From NCBI GenBank assembly GCA_903845115.1, contig CAIMWE010000005.1:1-49272 (forward strand): 49,272 nt of DNA, given 5' to 3'. The position numbers were made by a program, and so were the translations under genes. Below the pieces are notes generated by a model. That model was not told the DNA's origin and searched no databases. It saw nothing but the letters and a program-made list of their open reading frames with translations. Below are positions 22,385 through 29,831 of the stretch, one piece after another. The stretch's first letter is position 1; every line of letters begins with the position of its first letter. The DNA comes from an uncultured Acidobacteriota bacterium. GTDB lineage: Bacteria; Acidobacteriota; Thermoanaerobaculia; UBA5066.

Positions 22385-22423
22385 TGAGCGCCGGTGCCTA
22401 TATCCTGTCGATTGCTGAAGCAG

Positions 22424-23296
22424 ATGCCTCGATCCGTGATCTCCGACCCGGTCCTAGACGCCATGGAGAAGGCGCTCCGTGCATCCGCTCGGAAGGTCTT
22501 CGCCGTCAACGAACTCCTCCTTTTCCTGGCCGCTCAGGCCGAGGCGCTCCACTGCACGGCTAGGCCGACGGTTCTGATGGACCGGCTCGTGGAAGCGGGT
22601 CTGGTGACGGAGCTGTCCCTCAAGTCGCCCGACTACCCCCCGATCAGGCGGTACGCGGTAGGGGACCCATCCCCGTTCGAGCTTGCGCAGAGCCTTCGCG
22701 GCGGCGCCTATCTCTCGCACGCCTCGGCCGTGTCGCTCCTGGGACTGAACGATCAGATCCCGAAGACCCTGTACGGGAACAAGGAGCAGAGCCCGAAGCC
22801 GGTCCCGACGACGCCGTTGTCGCAGGAGAGGCTGGACCGGGCATTTCGGGGGTCGCCCAGGCGCTCGAACTACTTCTACCGTCACGCCGAGTACCACTTC
22901 GTCCTGCTGAGCGGCAAGAACACGCAGGACTTCGGCGTCGAGGCGATGACGGGGCCGCACGGGGAGCCCCTTCGTGTGACGAACCTCGAGCGGACTCTCC
23001 TGGACATCGCCGTGCGGCCCATCTACGCCGGGGGCGTCTACCAGGTGCTGGAGGCGTACCGGACCGCGGCTGACCGGCTCTCGGTATCGGGTCTGCTGGA
23101 GGCGCTGAAGAAGCTCGACTACGTCTATCCATACCATCAGGTCCTCGGCTTCTACCTGGAGAAGGCCGGCCTGCCGGCGGAGAAGACAAAGCCCTTCCGG
23201 GATCTCGGCCTCGAGTGGGACTTCTACCTCACGCACGGCCTCCGGGACTTCGAGCACGTCCCGTCCTGGCGCCTCTACGTGCCGCGCGGGTTCTAG
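22424..23296 (+). CDS. AbiEi-family type IV antitoxin / autorepressor
   Basis: A 290-residue protein with the AbiEi plan. An N-terminal winged helix (about 1-75: KVFAVNELLLFLAAQAEAL, LVEAGLVTELSL) is followed by the antitoxin C-terminal domain with YLSHASAVSLLGLNDQIPKTLY, NYFYRHAEYHFVLLSGK and RVTNLERTLLDIAVRPIYAGG. The family represses its own promoter and blocks the nucleotidyltransferase toxin without stable binding. ATG 22424 is used; GTG 22394 and ATG 22463 are alternatives and no strong Shine-Dalgarno sequence decides. Its stop (TAG 23294-23296) overlaps the stop of the convergent AbiEii-like gene. Normally the two genes are codirectional. Confidence 0.85.
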   Translation: MPRSVISDPVLDAMEKALRASARKVFAVNELLLFLAAQAEALHCTARPTVLMDRLVEAGLVTELSLKSPDYPPIRRYAVGDPSPFELAQSLRGGAYLSHASAVSLLGLNDQIPKTLYGNKEQSPKPVPTTPLSQERLDRAFRGSPRRSNYFYRHAEYHFVLLSGKNTQDFGVEAMTGPHGEPLRVTNLERTLLDIAVRPIYAGGVYQVLEAYRTAADRLSVSGLLEALKKLDYVYPYHQVLGFYLEKAGLPAEKTKPFRDLGLEWDFYLTHGLRDFEHVPSWRLYVPRGF

Positions 23297-24144
23297 GCCG
23301 TCAGCCTCTTCGCGATGGCGACCACGAAGTCGAAATAGAAGTCGAAATCGCCGGCCAGAGAACGAACGGAGCCCTCGACCGAAGGCCAGTCGACGCGGTG
23401 AAACTCCCGGGTCGTCTCGATGCGGGCCAGCAGGCCGATCGGGACTCGCTTCGCCTCGAACGTCTTCTCGAGGAGTTCCCGGTTTCCACTTGCCGCGAGG
23501 TCGGTGCTGGCCTCCGTGCAGATCGAGTGGATGTCGAAGAAGTCGCGCGCCCTGGGATGCGGGTATCGGGCGTACGGGTACTCGGGCATTTGCTGGCAGA
23601 TAGCCCGGACCTTCTCGGCCGCGATCAAGGCGGGCGAGTAGACGAGGATGGACGTGTCGTCGACAAGCCTGACGGCGACGTCGCCGACGAACTCGTGCCG
23701 GCTGATCTGGACCCGGAAGACCCGCTCCTGAGCCGGGCCGATCACGGTGGCCGAGCGCCGCGATCTTTCGACATCCGGTCCGGATCGCCCGGCCGGGATG
23801 AGCTTGAAGAGGACCTCGTATCCGCCCCACCAGCTTTCGTGCGGCTCCGGCGGCCGGAGGAGGAAACGGACGTCGAAGAGGTGGTAGCCGGCGTTGCGGA
23901 AGCCCGCGACGAGGCACTCGACGATTCGAATCTCCGCCTGTCTGACGTCGGGGAAGTCCCCCCGTAACGAGTAGTCGAGATCGAGAGAGGTACGGCCTCC
24001 GATTCCGTAGACCAGGGAGAGAGCATTCCCTCCCTTGAGGATCAGGCCGGCCGGTCCAGGGAGCGCCGCAGAGACCGCCTTCATGGCGATGAGACGGATC
24101 GCTTCTGCATCACCCGGCTTCGATGGGGTCTTCCCTGTGGTCAT
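23293..24144 (-). CDS. AbiEii/AbiGii-type nucleotidyltransferase toxin
   Basis: A 283-residue nucleotidyltransferase. The catalytic motif is KGGNALSLVYGIGGRTSLDLDYSL, with Gly38-Gly39, Asp55 and Asp57 forming the GG...DxD metal site. A later HEFVGDVAVRLVDDTSILVYSP and a helical LIAAEKVRAIC with ARDFFDIHSIC match the AbiEii substrate-side region. AbiEii toxins add nucleotides to tRNA 3' ends in studied cases. It is transcribed toward the antitoxin gene, so it is not under the twin-palindrome promoter. The start is ATG 24144; no clear ribosome site is seen, so translation may be weak. Confidence 0.88.
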   Translation of the reverse strand: MTTGKTPSKPGDAEAIRLIAMKAVSAALPGPAGLILKGGNALSLVYGIGGRTSLDLDYSLRGDFPDVRQAEIRIVECLVAGFRNAGYHLFDVRFLLRPPEPHESWWGGYEVLFKLIPAGRSGPDVERSRRSATVIGPAQERVFRVQISRHEFVGDVAVRLVDDTSILVYSPALIAAEKVRAICQQMPEYPYARYPHPRARDFFDIHSICTEASTDLAASGNRELLEKTFEAKRVPIGLLARIETTREFHRVDWPSVEGSVRSLAGDFDFYFDFVVAIAKRLTA

Positions 24145-24714: not shown

Positions 24715-25161
24715 TCATGGGGTGGGACTTCCGTCGCCTGTCACCCGGAACAGGCCGTCGTCCAGGGCTTGTACCCGGAACAACGTATCGAAGCCCTCGG
24801 CGACGGACGGAATTTCCAGGCGCCTCAACGTTCCAAGAACCACGACCTCCGGAACCCTGGCCCTTCCGCTGCGCGCGGCATTCCGGGTCAGGACGCTCTC
24901 GATCGCGGTCTCGAAGAAGTAGCCGGTCACCTTGAACCTGGTGCCCCTGACCAGCTCTATGTACTTCGCGCGGTCGTCCCTGGTCGGGTTCGTGTTGTCG
25001 ATGACGAAGCTCTGCCTCATGCCGATGCAGGCATCGATGAGAAGGGCCTCGCGCTTCCGTGTCTTGAGCCTGTCCGGGTTGACCCGGACGTGCGTGTGAA
25101 GGAACGTCGACGTGTAGAAGGTCGTCTTTCCAGCCCCCTGACACCCCGTGAGGATCACCAT
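24715..25161 (-). CDS. P-loop kinase of T4 polynucleotide-kinase type
   Basis: A 148-residue minimal P-loop phosphotransferase. Walker A is GCQGAGKTTF (Lys12). VRVNPDRL and the strand QSFVIDNTNPTRDDRAKYIEL are the D-x-T-N region that in T4 Pnkp-like kinases holds the 5'-OH acceptor. TAIESVLTRNAAR supplies the lid arginine. No phosphatase or ligase domain is fused. It probably phosphorylates a nucleic-acid end or a nucleoside-like substrate. ATG 25161 is used because the P-loop strand starts immediately. The same strand carries two RlaP-like nucleotidyltransferases about 0.5 kb upstream. Confidence 0.85.
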   Translation of the reverse strand: MVILTGCQGAGKTTFYTSTFLHTHVRVNPDRLKTRKREALLIDACIGMRQSFVIDNTNPTRDDRAKYIELVRGTRFKVTGYFFETAIESVLTRNAARSGRARVPEVVVLGTLRRLEIPSVAEGFDTLFRVQALDDGLFRVTGDGSPTP

Positions 25162-25203: not shown

Positions 25204-25635
25204 ATGTGGGTACTCACGACCTTCGGGTTCTTCAGCGTTGTCCAGAAGCGGGATACGAAGCACCTGACCGTGTGGGCCCGGGTGCGATCGGACCTGGACC
25301 GGTTGCGAGCCCGGGACCCTGATCTCCGTGAACAGCCGGCACGAAACCCTCGCCGGGAAGCTCGCCACCTTGCTGGAGCGGTCGGAGATCCGGGATCTCG
25401 TGGACGTGAAGACCTTGATCGACGCCGGCGCCCGGGGGACCTCGAAGCCGGCCTTCGCGATGCGCCGAAGAAGGACGCTGGATTCTCTCCACTGACGCTG
25501 GCGTGGGTGCTGAGGGGCTTCGATCTCGGGCCGCCCGCCCGGGGGCTCGGGTGGGCCGAGAGCGAGGAGCGGGAGCTGAGCGCCTTCCGTGACTGGCTGG
25601 TAGAGCGGCTGACGGCCGGCGCCGCGCCGGGCTAA
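25204..25635 (+). pseudogene. Chimeric pseudogene: MWVLTTFGFFSVV protein start fused to AbiEii C terminus
   Basis: Residues from ATG 25204 (MWVLTTFGFFSVVQK, VWARVRSDLDRLRAR) match the start of a short hypothetical family. After about 25318 the better frame changes to ISVNSRHETLAGKLATLLER and SEIRDLVDVKTLIDAG, the C-terminal part of an AbiEii-type nucleotidyltransferase. Near 25430 it shifts back (DLEAGLRDAPKKDAGFSPLT, then FRDWLVERLTAGAAPG, TAA at 25633). The join and at least one frameshift make it non-functional. The AbiEii piece is distinct from the intact copy at 23293. Confidence 0.65.
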
Positions 25636-25687: not shown

Positions 25688-26851
25688 TCAGGACCGAGAA
25701 ACGCTGAACGACACCCGTCTCGCCACCAGCTCCTCGAGAAGCCCTTCCGCGAACCCGTGGTCGACGTCCAGCGGGAGGGCGCTTCGCTGCGCCGCTTCCT
25801 CTACCTTCTCTCTCAGCGCCCCGGCCTCGTGGAGCAGTTCGTCGAACGTCATCGCCCCGTCGCGAATCGCGTTCAGCTCCTCGGCGTCCGGGCGGCGCAC
25901 CCGGAGCTCCCCCGATTCCAGCGCCTCCAGCCCCGTACGCATCAGCCGGAGAAGGTGCATCGCGTGCTTCGTGTCGTAGCCGTGCCGCCGTTCCAGGTCC
26001 GCCCTGACCGGATTCCGTCCGGCCTTCCACGCTTCGAACGCCTCCCAGTGCCTTGCAGCAGCCCGGTACCTTCTTTCCGCTTCCAGGGCCTCGGCCACGT
26101 CGCGGGGGAGGCCGAGCGCCTTCATCGCGACCGTCCGGAGTGCGGCGGGGCCGTCCATGTCGTCCAGGTGCCCGCTGAAGGCGTCCCTCCAGAATTCACC
26201 GAGCCGCTCCTCGACCGCGATCCGCGCCTCCTTCGGCAAGTCCACCGTCTCCAGCGCGTACGCCCGTACCTTCTCGGCCACCGCCTTCTCGATCCGGTCC
26301 CTGTCGTCGGGCGCCAGCGTCGGCCCGTCCGGGAGACCGAATTCGCGGCGACCTGGCCTCTGTCTCGGCGGGTTCAGCAGCCAGCCGCGATGCGTCTGGA
26401 TCCGCTTCAGTTGCGCCATGGCATAGCCCAGGAAGGTCTGCCGGACTTTCATCGTCAGAAACCGGTGTCGTTCTTGGTGGAGGCGCCGCCAGGTCGGGGT
26501 CTCGAAGAGCCAGTCGTTCTCGTCTGCGAAGAGGATCTCCAGGGCATTCGGGTTGGCCGCGGCGCAGAGGCCCACGAACTTCGCCACGTCGAAGAGGACG
26601 CACTCCGTCTTCACCGCAAGCCCGGCCGCCGCGGACGGGTGCCTCTCCAGTCTGGGTCGGATGTGGTTCCAGAGCGCCCCCTCGACGATCCCCTGGAACT
26701 CCTCGACCCGGCGGAACGGGGAGATCCGGTCCCTGAGGGGCACGATCCAGACTCCACGCAGGTCCACGTCCGATCCGGCCCGTGACGTTCCGTGGGCCTG
26801 GCTGCCGGCCAGCGTCACGAAGATCGTTTCGCGAGGGACGTCGAGCGTCAT
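25688..26851 (-). CDS. RlaP-family nucleotidyltransferase, copy 1
   Basis: A 387-residue protein of the Pol-beta-superfamily group that includes RNA-ligase-associated polymerases (PF10127). The catalytic motif is LAGSQAHGTSRAGSDVDLRG, with Asp28 and Asp30. Later ANPNALEILF and HRFLTMKVRQTFLGYAMAQL, then DTKHAMHLLRLMRTGLEAL, are the typical helical part. It transfers a nucleotide to an unknown acceptor; the family name comes from its link to RNA repair. ATG 26851 overlaps the stop of copy 2 by ATGA, so it is the last gene of a coupled four-gene operon. Confidence 0.88.
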   Translation of the reverse strand: MTLDVPRETIFVTLAGSQAHGTSRAGSDVDLRGVWIVPLRDRISPFRRVEEFQGIVEGALWNHIRPRLERHPSAAAGLAVKTECVLFDVAKFVGLCAAANPNALEILFADENDWLFETPTWRRLHQERHRFLTMKVRQTFLGYAMAQLKRIQTHRGWLLNPPRQRPGRREFGLPDGPTLAPDDRDRIEKAVAEKVRAYALETVDLPKEARIAVEERLGEFWRDAFSGHLDDMDGPAALRTVAMKALGLPRDVAEALEAERRYRAAARHWEAFEAWKAGRNPVRADLERRHGYDTKHAMHLLRLMRTGLEALESGELRVRRPDAEELNAIRDGAMTFDELLHEAGALREKVEEAAQRSALPLDVDHGFAEGLLEELVARRVSFSVSRS

Positions 26852-27648
26852 TGTTCGGCCCCCCTCTGGGGCTCCAGCCTCAGGCGGATCACGAAGTCCT
26901 CGAGGGCTGCCCTGGAGGTAGGTTCGTCGGGAAGACGACTCGAGGCATGGGCTGCCGTCAGGGTCTCCTCGAGCCGGTCGAGCCGAATGTCGTGGTGGGC
27001 GACCTCTCCCGGCTCCAGGGCCATCCGCTCACTACCTGACCGCTTCCGTTCCACGAGATCCGGCACCTCGGGCTCACCAAGCAGTTCCGCCAGCCGCAGG
27101 ACGTTCGCTTCGACCTCACCCGTTCTCATGAGGTGGATGCCGGTGAGAAGGACACGGTAGGCATAGAGAAGGTGTTTCACGCTCGGCCCGGGTTCATGGA
27201 GGCGCTGACGCCTTCCCCGGGCGAACCCCTGATAGTGGCGGACGGTCGGCCGCGTGACGCAGCCCCGACCCAGTTCGCGGAGCTCCGCGAAGGCAGCCGT
27301 CGAGACCACGACCAGGGGCGAAAAGAGCTGCTCCAGGACGTACCCGTTGTGGCTCACGAGCAAACGGGCGAACTTCCTGAGGTCGTGTGCCACCCAGTCG
27401 AGGTCGTACCGCCCCTTCTCCGAGAGTGTGATCGTCTCCTCCGCCGTCCGGAGTCCCAGCACTTCCCGGATGTCGAGGACGAAGGCGCCCCGCAGGTCGA
27501 CGTCGCTGTCGGGAGAAGCGAAGCCGTACAGGTGCGCGCCGCTCACGGTCGCGAAGACCAGGCGCGGGGAACGCCGCACGACCTCCGCCAGGAACTTTCG
27601 ATCCAGCAGTCTCCAGACGTCTGAAACCGGGTCGTCGGGCGGAGCCAT
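26848..27648 (-). CDS. RlaP-family nucleotidyltransferase, copy 2
   Basis: A 266-residue paralogue-like relative of copy 1. The motif is TVSGAHLYGFASPDSDVDLRG, with Asp49 and Asp51. ALRxxA-type helices follow (VLEQLFSPLVVV, SVKHLLYAYRVLLTGIHLMRTG, EANVLRLAELLG). It is shorter than copy 1 and has a G-A-x-x-Y-G version of the motif. The ATG at 27648 follows AGGGA at a good distance; ATG 27654 overlaps the VapC stop as ATGA and is the alternative. Either way translation is coupled to the PIN toxin gene upstream and to copy 1 downstream. Confidence 0.86.
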   Translation of the reverse strand: MAPPDDPVSDVWRLLDRKFLAEVVRRSPRLVFATVSGAHLYGFASPDSDVDLRGAFVLDIREVLGLRTAEETITLSEKGRYDLDWVAHDLRKFARLLVSHNGYVLEQLFSPLVVVSTAAFAELRELGRGCVTRPTVRHYQGFARGRRQRLHEPGPSVKHLLYAYRVLLTGIHLMRTGEVEANVLRLAELLGEPEVPDLVERKRSGSERMALEPGEVAHHDIRLDRLEETLTAAHASSRLPDEPTSRAALEDFVIRLRLEPQRGAEQ

Positions 27649-27650
27649 CG

Positions 27651-28019
27651 TCATTTCCCTGCCGCCTCCATCCGGGTGTCCAGGGTGGCGAGTGGGGCCT
27701 TCAGCGTGCGGGCCAGCCAGAGGTAGGCCGCGTCGTAGGCGGTCACGTTCCTCTCGATGGCGACTTCCAGGACGGCGTCGTGGTCCACGTCGACGTGGCG
27801 GATGTCCAGGTCCATCGCCACGCGGAGCGCGCGGGCGATCAGGTCCGCCTGCCTGGGGGCACGGCGCGCCTTCTTCCACGCGATGTTCGTGACCTCGTAG
27901 CGCAGGAGGGCGGGGGCCACGAGCTCGTCGTCCCCGAGCAGCCTCGCCGCGCGATCGGCGTCCGGCTCGCCGAACACGATCGCCGCGATGACGGACGCGT
28001 CGACGACCTTAACGGGCAT
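27651..28019 (-). CDS. VapC-type PIN-domain ribonuclease toxin
   Basis: A 122-residue PIN protein. Acidic residues appear in order: VVDASVIAAIVFGE (Asp7), LRYEVTNIAW (Glu), TAYDAAYLWLA (Asp) and LATLDTRM (Asp), so the metal site is complete. VapC toxins cut tRNA or rRNA. The gene overlaps the antitoxin gene by 11 bases upstream and its stop overlaps the next gene's first ATG. This makes it the second of four coupled minus-strand genes. Confidence 0.92.
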   Translation of the reverse strand: MPVKVVDASVIAAIVFGEPDADRAARLLGDDELVAPALLRYEVTNIAWKKARRAPRQADLIARALRVAMDLDIRHVDVDHDAVLEVAIERNVTAYDAAYLWLARTLKAPLATLDTRMEAAGK

Positions 28020-28233
28020 CGCGCATCTGGCGGAGGATGCGGACGGAGTCGCCCCTCGTCGTCAGGCCCAGCGCGCGGACGCGCTCCATCGCGTCGCGGG
28101 GGCTCAGTCTCGGGGCGGCGGCCTCCTCTAGGATCACCATCAGCTCGCCCTGCAGCGACCGCCGGTTGCGCTCGGCGCGCTCGCGCAGCCGTTGGGCGAG
28201 CTCCTCGGGGACGTTCTTGACGGACAGGTTCAC
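28009..28233 (-). CDS. FitA/VapB ribbon-helix-helix antitoxin
   Basis: A 74-residue antitoxin. NLSVKNVPEELAQRLRERAE is followed by RNRRSLQGELMVILEEA, the ribbon-helix-helix of FitA-like antitoxins, then a flexible tail (GDSVRILRQMRDAR) that would occupy the VapC site. An upstream ATG (28281) lies above the -10 box at 28261-28266, so GTG 28233 is preferred; CTG 28239 is closer to GGAGG (28245-28249) and also possible. It is the first gene of the operon and a likely autorepressor. Confidence 0.85.
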   Translation of the reverse strand: MNLSVKNVPEELAQRLRERAERNRRSLQGELMVILEEAAAPRLSPRDAMERVRALGLTTRGDSVRILRQMRDAR

Positions 28234-28260
28234 GGACAGGGGCGCCTCCAGAACGGATCC

Positions 28261-28266
28261 ATTATA
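28261..28266 (-). promoter_or_regulatory. Consensus -10 box of the VapBC-RlaP operon
   Basis: TATAAT on the minus strand, with CTGACA at 28281-28286 as a possible -35 at a short 14-base spacing. It places the transcript start near 28254, just before GGAGG and the GTG start, and argues against the upstream ATG. Confidence 0.55.
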
Positions 28267-28304
28267 GCTCCGCTCCCGCATGTCAGGCCTGGGAAGGCCG
28301 CGAG

Positions 28305-28688
28305 CTACGGGAGCCGTGGAGAGAGGGACGCGGCGTTCGCGCGGTACACGGTCCGGAGTGGCTCGTTGATCGGGAGGTTCAGGAATCGCTCGAGCTGAAG
28401 CGACAGGCTCGGGATGCCCTGCTCGGAGGCGGGGAGGACGGCGCCCGTCCGGACGAGGTCGCTGGCCCGGTCGTTCATCCCCCTGAGAAGGGCCACCCGG
28501 AGCGGGGTCCCGTAGGTCGTCGTCGACTTCCGGAGCAGCTCGGGGGTCCGGTGCGCGGCGGAGTAGATGGCCGCGGCGACTCCGGCCTGGTCGTCCCCGG
28601 GGGTCGTCACGATGGTCCAGACGAGGGGATTCCCGGACCGGGCCCGGTCGTCGGGGAGGGTGACCCGCAGTCTGGCGACCTCCGCCAT
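28305..28688 (-). CDS. Hypothetical protein, possibly N-terminally truncated
   Basis: A 127-residue protein I cannot assign. It has good coding character (ARLRVTLPDDRARSGNPLVW, VTTPGDDQAGVAAAIYSAAH, SLQLERFLNLPINEPLRTVY). The protein-like frame continues about 10 codons upstream of ATG 28688 (EEQAGDAKLDW) to an in-frame TGA with no start codon in between, so the gene may have lost its 5' end and restarted at the internal ATG. No membrane segment is present. Confidence 0.6.
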   Translation of the reverse strand: MAEVARLRVTLPDDRARSGNPLVWTIVTTPGDDQAGVAAAIYSAAHRTPELLRKSTTTYGTPLRVALLRGMNDRASDLVRTGAVLPASEQGIPSLSLQLERFLNLPINEPLRTVYRANAASLSPRLP

Positions 28689-28827
28689 CCAGTCGAGCTT
28701 CGCGTCGCCCGCCTGCTCCTCTCTCGCTCCCCGAACGGGCGGTGAAGGTCCCGGCCGACGGAGATAGTTGAGAAGTCAAGCCTGGCATCCCTCTCCCCCG
28801 CGGTCCGGGGGGCTTAACATTTCAGCC

Positions 28828-29412
28828 GTGAGGCGGCCCCTTCCGTTCCTTGGCTGTCTTCTCCTGGCCGCGGCTCTCGGCGGGTGCTGGAGCTACGTCT
28901 CTCCCGAGGCCCGGACGCGGTTCACGGAACGCCAGGGCCGATTCACCGTGACCGTCTACCCGGTGAACGTCGCCTGCGGCGGGAAGCCCACCGTCGGCGA
29001 CTTCCGGCTGGGGGACGACCTTGCGGCGTGGCTGAACGCTCAGGGCATCGCCGACGCGCGGCCCGGCAGGCCTGGCGCGCGGGTCCCGGTGAAGTGGGGG
29101 TACAACCAGGCGAAGATGGCGGAGCAGAGCGCAAGGGCGTTCGGTGCGTGGGTCCAGCAGGCCAACCTGACGACGGACTACGCCCTGCTGGCCGAGATCC
29201 TCTGCAATCCCGACGAGACGAAGGTGATCGGGGTGCACTTCTCCCTCGCGGAGAAGTCGGGTCTGGTGGCGGCGGGAGGGTTGACCAACTCTCACTGGGA
29301 CGAGTTCAAGGAGGTCGACCCTGTCGATCGGCAGGGCGGGCTGACCGTGCTCAAGAAGATGATCCTGAAAGGTCTTGCGACCGAAACGACGTCGCGAGGG
29401 GGAGTTCGATGA
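28828..29412 (+). CDS. Lipoprotein of unknown function
   Basis: A 194-residue protein with a lipoprotein signal: RRPLPFLGCLLLAAALGGC has the lipobox LGGC, so Cys20 would be lipidated. The mature part is soluble (FTVTVYPVNVACGG, RLGDDLAAWLNAQG, DYALLAEILCNPDE, TVLKKMILKGLAT). The pattern of a small periplasmic lipoprotein with a conserved Cys is seen but no known domain. GTG 28828 is the start that best exposes the signal. It overlaps the next gene by ATGA, so both are one operon. Confidence 0.75.
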   Translation: MRRPLPFLGCLLLAAALGGCWSYVSPEARTRFTERQGRFTVTVYPVNVACGGKPTVGDFRLGDDLAAWLNAQGIADARPGRPGARVPVKWGYNQAKMAEQSARAFGAWVQQANLTTDYALLAEILCNPDETKVIGVHFSLAEKSGLVAAGGLTNSHWDEFKEVDPVDRQGGLTVLKKMILKGLATETTSRGGVR

Positions 29413-29831
29413 ACAAGGCTCCGGTCTGGTTCACCGTGATCGTGGTCGTGGCCCTGCTCTGGAACGTGGCCGGGCTCCTGGCCGTCCTTGCAGACCTGCG
29501 CCTGACGGCGGCCGACATCGCCGCCCTGCCGGTCCAGCAGCAGGAGCTCTACAAGGCCCGCCCGATCTGGTCGGTCGCGGCCAGCGTCGTCGCCGTGCTC
29601 GGCGGCACACTCGGCTGCCTCAGCCTCCTGCTCCGGAAACGGTGGGCGCTCAACCTGCTTTACGCGTCGCTGGCCGGCGTCGTCCTCCAGGACGTCGGCC
29701 TCTTCGTCGTGGCCGGCGCGGCGAAGGTCCGGGACCCGGTCCCCTTCGTCCTGCAGGGCCTGGTCCTCGTGGTGGCCGTGGGCCTGATCGCGCTCGGCCG
29801 GCTGGCCGCGCGCCAGTCGTGGCTCTCGTAG
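29409..29831 (+). CDS. Four-helix small membrane protein
   Basis: A 140-residue inner-membrane protein with about four hydrophobic helices (PVWFTVIVVVALLWNVAGLL, ASVVAVLGGTLGCLSLLL, LNLLYASLAGVVLQDVGLFV, VLQGLVLVVAVGLIALG). It is typical of small sugar-transporter-like or DoxX-like unknowns. The ATG at 29409 overlaps the lipoprotein stop. A role together with the lipoprotein is likely but unknown. Confidence 0.8.
   Translation: MNKAPVWFTVIVVVALLWNVAGLLAVLADLRLTAADIAALPVQQQELYKARPIWSVAASVVAVLGGTLGCLSLLLRKRWALNLLYASLAGVVLQDVGLFVVAGAAKVRDPVPFVLQGLVLVVAVGLIALGRLAARQSWLS

Follow-up and report, generated by a model that had tools for sequence, protein, structure and literature searches.

An apparently old pair of RlaP nucleotidyltransferases lies behind a vapBC module in an Acidobacteriota genome and is a candidate for RNA-end repair

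Four genes on the minus strand of a 49,272-nucleotide stretch of DNA from an uncultured Acidobacteriota bacterium (the window; contig 5 of the 305-contig, 5.85-Mb assembly G000, 96% complete) encode a VapB antitoxin, a VapC toxin, and two nucleotidyltransferases of the RlaP family (PF10127), designated here RlaP1 and RlaP2. We propose that these genes comprise two modules, VapBC and RlaP1-RlaP2, which are probably transcribed together, and that the RlaP pair is probably a two-subunit 3'-end nucleotidyltransferase for damaged RNA. Judged from sequence comparisons, RlaP1-RlaP2 is an old, widely shared two-gene module drawn from two sister clades and kept together across phyla, and VapBC appears to be a local newcomer and not a part of the pair.

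Results

A first-pass annotation, made from the DNA letters alone, had read the four minus-strand genes as a FitA/VapB antitoxin, a VapC toxin, and two PF10127-like nucleotidyltransferases. Checks of the open reading frames (ORFs) and Pfam searches verified all four, with the same identities. The vapB gene (positions 28009 to 28233, GTG start at 28233, TAA stop at 28011-28009) encodes a VapB/FitA-like ribbon-helix-helix (RHH) antitoxin (PF22513, E = 1e-11), and vapC (27651 to 28019) encodes a PIN toxin (PF01850, E = 7.2e-12). The acidic residues D7, E42, D96, and D114, which we take to be catalytic, are present in the VapC translation, read by eye. The products of rlaP1 (26848 to 27648) and rlaP2 (25688 to 26851) score 145.5 bits (E = 2.9e-42) and 51.3 bits (E = 1.7e-13), respectively, against a PF10127 cut-off of 23, and a search of their own genome returned them as the sole PF10127 matches. 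NCBIfam gave nothing close to its cut-offs for any of the four products, and the PADLOC search yielded a weak PDC-S09 match for RlaP2 (E = 0.05) and none for the other three.

Relatives of the pair were collected with a pattern-based peptide scan of 84,980 species genomes, which finds close relatives only and which returned 31 RlaP1 relatives. With the addition of phylum genomes, plasmids, and one viral contig, 68 RlaP loci were compared, the window included (two of them, L113 and L131, are the same gene). Two adjacent RlaP genes were directly seen in 37 of the 68 loci; the other 31 are counted together as single-gene types or contig-end cases. The order varies (RlaP1-RlaP2, RlaP2-RlaP1, or convergent in Streptomyces) and the adjacency stays. 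The rlaP1/rlaP2 junction is an ATGA overlap in the window. Among the 13 nearest loci that share this gene order (L009, L013 to L023, and L042), L009 has a 228-base gap and the 12 others a junction between -4 and 0 bases; in the Deinococcus loci, where the order is reversed, it is -4 in 3/3. The coupling of rlaP1 and rlaP2 exceeds chance, and the earlier view of the two nucleotidyltransferases as a coupled pair is upheld by the paired loci, the short junctions, and the tree described below. In the phylum, PF10127 was found in 35 of 396 genomes, 13 of them with an adjacent pair. Viral relatives of RlaP1 comprised one partial contig, and 130 phage records gave identities of 25 to 31% among the 20 matches listed. 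No recurrent extra partner gene stood out in an all-versus-all comparison of ORFs from 49 loci, inspected over the 45 largest clusters; beyond RlaP, these reflected shadow ORFs or synteny among Streptomyces and among planctomycetes, and one protein-kinase-like cluster spanned 6 loci.

On a maximum-likelihood tree of 101 sequences, a 100/100 split separates an RlaP1 side of 61 rows from an RlaP2 side of 40 rows. The split is to be read with caution, as the tree program gave a warning of long branches that meet (40 rows including RlaP2 members and 15 distant RlaP1-type rows). Five of the 106 RlaP matches, all shorter than 190 residues, were omitted (L008, L024, L040, and two fragments from L039). 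Every locus with both RlaP genes on the tree had one per side of the split (36/36), and the same lineages occur on both sides, namely the window group, planctomycetes, Streptomyces, Deinococcus, and other Acidobacteriota. A recent tandem duplication of RlaP in the window genome was ruled out by this two-clade tree.

The pair also occurs in operons of RNA repair. On three Deinococcus plasmids, RlaP2-RlaP1 directly follows Hen1. The order is Hen1-RlaP2-RlaP1-Pnkp in D. gobiensis; in D. ficus, Hen1-RlaP2-RlaP1 is followed by one extra gene and then Pnkp; and D. taeanensis has kinase-Thg1-two small genes-Hen1-RlaP2-RlaP1. The extra gene of D. ficus (L138, 5714 to 6427), between RlaP1 and Pnkp, encodes an unnamed 237-residue protein. 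In the window, a small polynucleotide kinase (PNK)-like P-loop kinase is encoded on the minus strand 0.5 kb downstream of rlaP2 (24715 to 25161, ATG at 25161 and stop checked; AAA_33, E = 1.6e-11). It matches a PNK-3'Pase model with an E value of 4e-12 but reaches only 45 bits against a cut-off of 503. This kinase is 36% identical to the kinase beside Thg1 on the third Deinococcus plasmid, and its homologues directly adjoin Thg1 in L141, L144, L147, and L148. It is a candidate for a third component of a set that would repair RNA ends; its co-transcription with the pair is putative.

The distribution of these genes in the phylum points in the same direction; here, the samples of 396 genomes (RlaP and Pnkp) and 392 genomes (kinase and Thg1) were treated as one set. 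Thg1 was present in 6 of 392 genomes, all six of which carry RlaP, five as adjacent pairs; the sixth (G405) has two unlinked RlaP genes, the second without clade placement. For the link between Thg1 and the pair, the Fisher p value is 1e-7 by genome and about 0.003 by family, the latter an estimate with an assumed 90 families. The PNK-like kinase family was found in 13 of 392 genomes, 5 of which are pair genomes (p = 2e-5 by genome, 0.06 by family). According to its coordinates, the kinase gene lies directly beside Thg1 in three genomes (G149, G269, and G428) and 2.2 kb away in a fourth (G138). A kinase-Thg1 neighborhood in bacteria was published in 2010 (PMC2904730). The first-pass annotation had linked the family of the nucleotidyltransferases to RNA repair, and the Deinococcus Hen1 and Pnkp contexts, together with the Thg1 genomes, bear this out for some relatives. 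In RlaP genomes of several phyla, Pnkp scored over the cut-off in 11 of 35, 5 of the 11 being Streptomyces, a count that has no baseline. One pair genome of the same family as the window genome (G011, contig 258) carries a full Pnkp (27032 to 29560) and RtcB (22976 to 24106) within 3 kb of each other.

VapBC showed no such association with the pair. PIN genes were counted with a home-made profile of 21 sequences that covers the PIN family only and recovered a PIN ORF in 30/30 loci fetched with VapC. None of the 67 other RlaP loci, 56 of which extend for 1 kb or more on either side (one gene being represented twice among these), had a PIN gene within 1 kb of RlaP; L017 came nearest, at 3.3 kb, followed by L023 at 5.7 kb. 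Conversely, none of 29 other loci with VapC relatives had RlaP in flanks of up to 1.5 kb. A different toxin family came closer in L016, where a ParE gene on the opposite strand is about 0.75 kb away from the pair. The closest VapC relatives are 47% (G003) and 42% (G014) identical, with 51% for one on a plasmid, and the VapB proteins beside the first two are 64% and 59% identical, respectively. In G003, a genome of the same family, the gene after VapC is an unrelated 748-residue ORF, and this related VapBC lies on the same 86-kb contig as an RlaP pair, about 30 kb from it. A search for an empty site in relatives showed none; two genes to the right of the locus match contig 5 of G003, to which no other window gene gave a match. 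A conserved four-gene VapBC-RlaP system was rejected on the counts from the 67 and 29 other loci. The idea, drawn from the tight coupling, that the four genes are one system did not hold up, and the proposed check for conserved co-occurrence of the four families, once run, spoke against it, as homologues of the nucleotidyltransferases had no VapBC neighbors in the loci examined. On the plasmid of Acidibrevibacterium (L142), the VapC relative is accompanied by a second RHH/PIN pair and adjoins drmD of a DISARM system.

The slot upstream of the pair is filled elsewhere by unrelated genes, encoding a pseudouridine synthase in L034, an ADP-ribosylglycohydrolase in L039 (with a relative in L035), and, before RlaP2, Hen1 in Deinococcus. 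Because such coupled genes occupy this slot, tight overlap with the upstream gene is weak evidence of a common function, and the coupling of vapC to rlaP1 had no second example among the loci examined. PIN genes were present genome-wide in 33 of 34 RlaP genomes searched, with up to 61 in one genome among the matches listed, their positions unmatched to the RlaP loci. As PIN genes are so common there, a chance meeting with the pair is not far-fetched.

Within the window, the overlaps described in the first-pass annotation stood in part. The 11-base overlap of vapB and vapC (the vapB stop ends at 28009 and vapC starts at 28019) and the ATGA of rlaP1/rlaP2 were confirmed. An ATGA between vapC and rlaP1 requires the ATG at 27654, a possible start that is probably unused; the ATG at 27648 gives a 2-base gap instead and is probably the start of rlaP1, with an AGGGA just upstream that is better spaced for it. 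Homologues of RlaP1 do not settle the choice between the two. The annotation had also named a promoter between vapC and the first nucleotidyltransferase gene as an argument against a single system, and a simple promoter scan of this junction found none, so that co-transcription of vapC and rlaP1 in the window genome is likely. Ahead of vapB, a TATAAT hexamer (28261 to 28266, minus strand), read in the sequence, is a weak candidate for a -10 box, since a sigma-70 scan gave no full promoter.

Both RlaP proteins look like active Pol-beta-type nucleotidyltransferases, as the catalytic acids are kept in both. In RlaP1, S36, G37, D49, and D51 are invariant and residue 84 is D or E in 30/30 alignment rows; in RlaP2, G16, S17, D28, D30, and E83 are invariant in 22/22. 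AlphaFold2 models (mean predicted local distance difference test scores of 93.7 for RlaP1 and 92.7 for RlaP2) each combine a nucleotidyltransferase domain with a helical part. In the window group, RlaP2 carries a helical insert (about residues 150 to 280) that is missing from aligned Streptomyces and planctomycete RlaP2; the planctomycete proteins of L026, L029, L031, and L043 are extended at the N terminus by about 90 residues that the window group lacks. Sequence searches against solved structures gave no credible match for either protein. Among solved folds, the RlaP1 model came closest to Hailong HalB (Z = 11.1, 3.7 Å, 175 residues), DrrA (10.9), and aminoglycoside nucleotidyltransferases (about 10), and it matched the MNT antitoxin at Z = 8.5 (3.8 Å over 113 residues); the top fold for RlaP2 was also HalB (Z = 9.1, 4.2 Å over 172 residues). 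Residues 131 to 236 of RlaP1 resemble a HEPN bundle (Z = 9.3). HEPN RNases carry the motif R-x4-6-H, which is not conserved in RlaP1: H138 never varies, but position 133 is occupied by A, G, K, R, or S. The profile of type VII MntA was not reached, RlaP2 scoring 15 bits against a cut-off of 60 and RlaP1 being assigned to no family.

Other genes near the pair were noted in the window and elsewhere. Between rlaP2 and the kinase gene lies a broken remnant of an AbiEii-like nucleotidyltransferase gene (25282 to 25635, plus strand), in which the open piece at 25328-25492 matches PF08843 (E = 1.5e-5) and the continuation, by reading of the sequence, is in another frame. Farther along, an AbiEii-type toxin gene (22394 to 23296, plus strand; PF08843, E = 5e-19) stands tail to tail with a minus-strand gene (23293 to 24144) whose product is weakly AbiEi antitoxin-like at its C terminus (E = 0.0017, below the cut-off). 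Such an opposite-strand AbiE arrangement would be unusual, and toxin-antitoxin genes seem to be decaying in the region around the remnant. On contig 29 of G003 (L010, 2800 to 6330, and L124), a distance of about 1.2 kb separates an RlaP pair from a CRISPR array with a period of about 72 bases, of which 49 copies were found; the array comes after Cas_GSU0053-type, Cas4-Cas1, and Cas2 genes. In Streptomyces (L028, L035, L036, L037, and L039), an ADP-ribosylglycohydrolase gene stands just before rlaP1, as checked with Pfam in L039 and by clustering in the others, and in L039 it is preceded by the gene for an NrtR-type NUDIX regulator. A link of the pair to NAD/ADP-ribose is possible in Streptomyces.

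Discussion

The pair is read as an RNA-end repair enzyme because of its Hen1, Pnkp, Thg1, and kinase contexts. According to our model, VapBC would be an ordinary type II toxin-antitoxin module, and RlaP1 and RlaP2 would form a second module, a two-subunit, template-independent nucleotidyltransferase. This enzyme would add nucleotides to the 3' ends of RNAs, probably tRNAs, that have been cut or trimmed and that might afterwards be joined by a ligase encoded elsewhere, RtcB or another. Enzymes of the 5' end would cooperate, such as the PNK-like kinase downstream, with kinase and Thg1 acting at 5' ends where they are present. Lying directly behind vapBC, the pair is probably co-transcribed with it, and its level would be expected to rise upon degradation of VapB. 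The placement of VapBC is a singular local arrangement, through which a toxin-antitoxin module would control the pair in the window organism.

Several observations weigh against this model. The co-occurrence p values are inflated by kinship, G138 and G149 belonging to one family and G269 and G428 to one genus, and Thg1 is missing from 8 of the 13 pair genomes. Where a genome of the phylum has all three, the kinase and Thg1 genes are on other contigs than the pair. An association between the pair and Pnkp in the phylum was sought and not seen, as Pnkp scored over the cut-off in 10 of 396 genomes and only one of these (G115) is among the 13 with a pair. The window genome itself has no Thg1 match, no Pnkp (0 TIGR04075 matches in the 96% complete assembly), and no PF09414 RNA ligase; the 17 window ORFs that were scanned include no ligase, Hen1, Thg1, or Pnkp. 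RtcB is present in that genome on another contig and is weakly commoner in pair genomes (13/14 versus 11/18, p = 0.05, with unmatched controls). The fold matches are remote, and the Z values of these models indicate a fold and not a function or substrate. With the pair, the kinase, and RtcB in the window genome but no Thg1, Pnkp, or PF09414, any RNA repair there would have to rely on a reduced set.

A tighter bond between the modules has been considered, in which VapC would cut tRNA or rRNA and the pair would restore or tag the 3'-OH, so that the toxin would be reversible or its products would persist. The four genes follow one another in the same direction, overlapping or 2 bases apart, RlaP relatives reside in RNA-repair operons, and cleavage by PIN nucleases yields 3'-OH ends, which are usable by a nucleotidyltransferase; set against this, the arrangement occurs in one genome only, PIN and RlaP genes were not neighbors in any of the 67 and 29 other loci, and the coupled position upstream is held elsewhere by unrelated genes, so we consider an integrated unit unlikely. 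A dedicated cut-and-repair unit is possible, resting on one genome. In a more elaborate version, VapBC would have captured the repair pair, with one promoter for cutter and mender and a reversible toxin: VapC would cut tRNA, an RlaP1-RlaP2 complex would rebuild or tag the 3' end, and the PNK-like kinase would prepare the 5' end. More broadly, the RlaP pair, the PNK-like kinase, and Thg1 might constitute a two-ended system in bacteria, with RlaP at the 3' end and Thg1 at the 5' end. We give this version, too, little credence. That vapBC and the rlaP pair are adjacent by pure chance, independently expressed and sharing no transcript, would agree with the lack of a second example of the gene order in the loci examined and with the abundance of PIN genes in such genomes; the absence of intergenic space for a promoter between vapC and rlaP1, where the scan found none, argues against it, and we rate it very unlikely.

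A different function for the pair would be that of a toxin-antitoxin-like or defense-signaling system, in which one protein modifies the other or an oligonucleotide signal is made, as by Hailong HalB. The models lend themselves to this idea, HalB being the top solved match by Z for both and RlaP1 also matching the MNT antitoxin, but for RlaP1 the HalB score is tied with those of DrrA and the aminoglycoside nucleotidyltransferases. The neighborhoods offer the CRISPR array 1.2 kb from the pair in G003 and AbiE genes near the pair in the window and in D. gobiensis; nevertheless, no effector-like gene recurs by the pair across phyla in the 45 largest ORF clusters of the 49 loci, and the Hen1, Pnkp, and Thg1 contexts indicate RNA ends. 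We regard this alternative as rather unlikely and favor the two-subunit 3'-end nucleotidyltransferase, encoded next to a separate VapBC module.

The valuable part of the locus is, in our opinion, the RlaP1-RlaP2 pair with its link to Thg1 and the kinase. The RlaP family, reportedly defined in a 2016 paper, takes its name from a function that was predicted. Passages of two articles treat it as a prediction or in passing (PMC7824862 and PMC6514570), the first stating that it is predicted to restore lost nucleotides ahead of RNA ligation. A pair of sister-clade proteins, with RlaP in all Thg1-bearing genomes of the phylum sample, makes a concrete testable unit. The placement of VapBC provides a single natural example of an RNase toxin that may have its promoter in common with a possible RNA-mending pair; the literature searched contained no paper joining vapBC, a nucleotidyltransferase, and RNA repair.

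Compared with known systems, the window proteins are like the RlaP family in Pfam score, the GS and DxD motifs, and the third acid; they differ in that no RNA ligase gene, the usual RlaP association, was seen beside them, in that copies from sister clades are paired, and in the VapBC upstream. The first two genes are like type II VapBC/FitAB modules, with the RHH antitoxin first, the PIN toxin second, and an 11-base overlap, but the locus runs on into two nucleotidyltransferase genes, and the toxin activity is predicted. The likeness to Hailong HalB, at 12 to 16% identity, is a remote fold match only. Among the ORF clusters listed, no Hen1/Pnkp cluster was common to the close Acidobacteriota and Myxococcota pair loci, and the window genome differs from the Hen1-Pnkp operons in having no Pnkp match; the resemblance to these operons comes from Deinococcus, in which RlaP2-RlaP1 stands after Hen1 on three plasmids and before Pnkp on two. 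From the bacterial sets of Thg1 and a polynucleotide-kinase-type P-loop kinase, the window genome differs by its lack of a Thg1 match, whereas its kinase is homologous to theirs.

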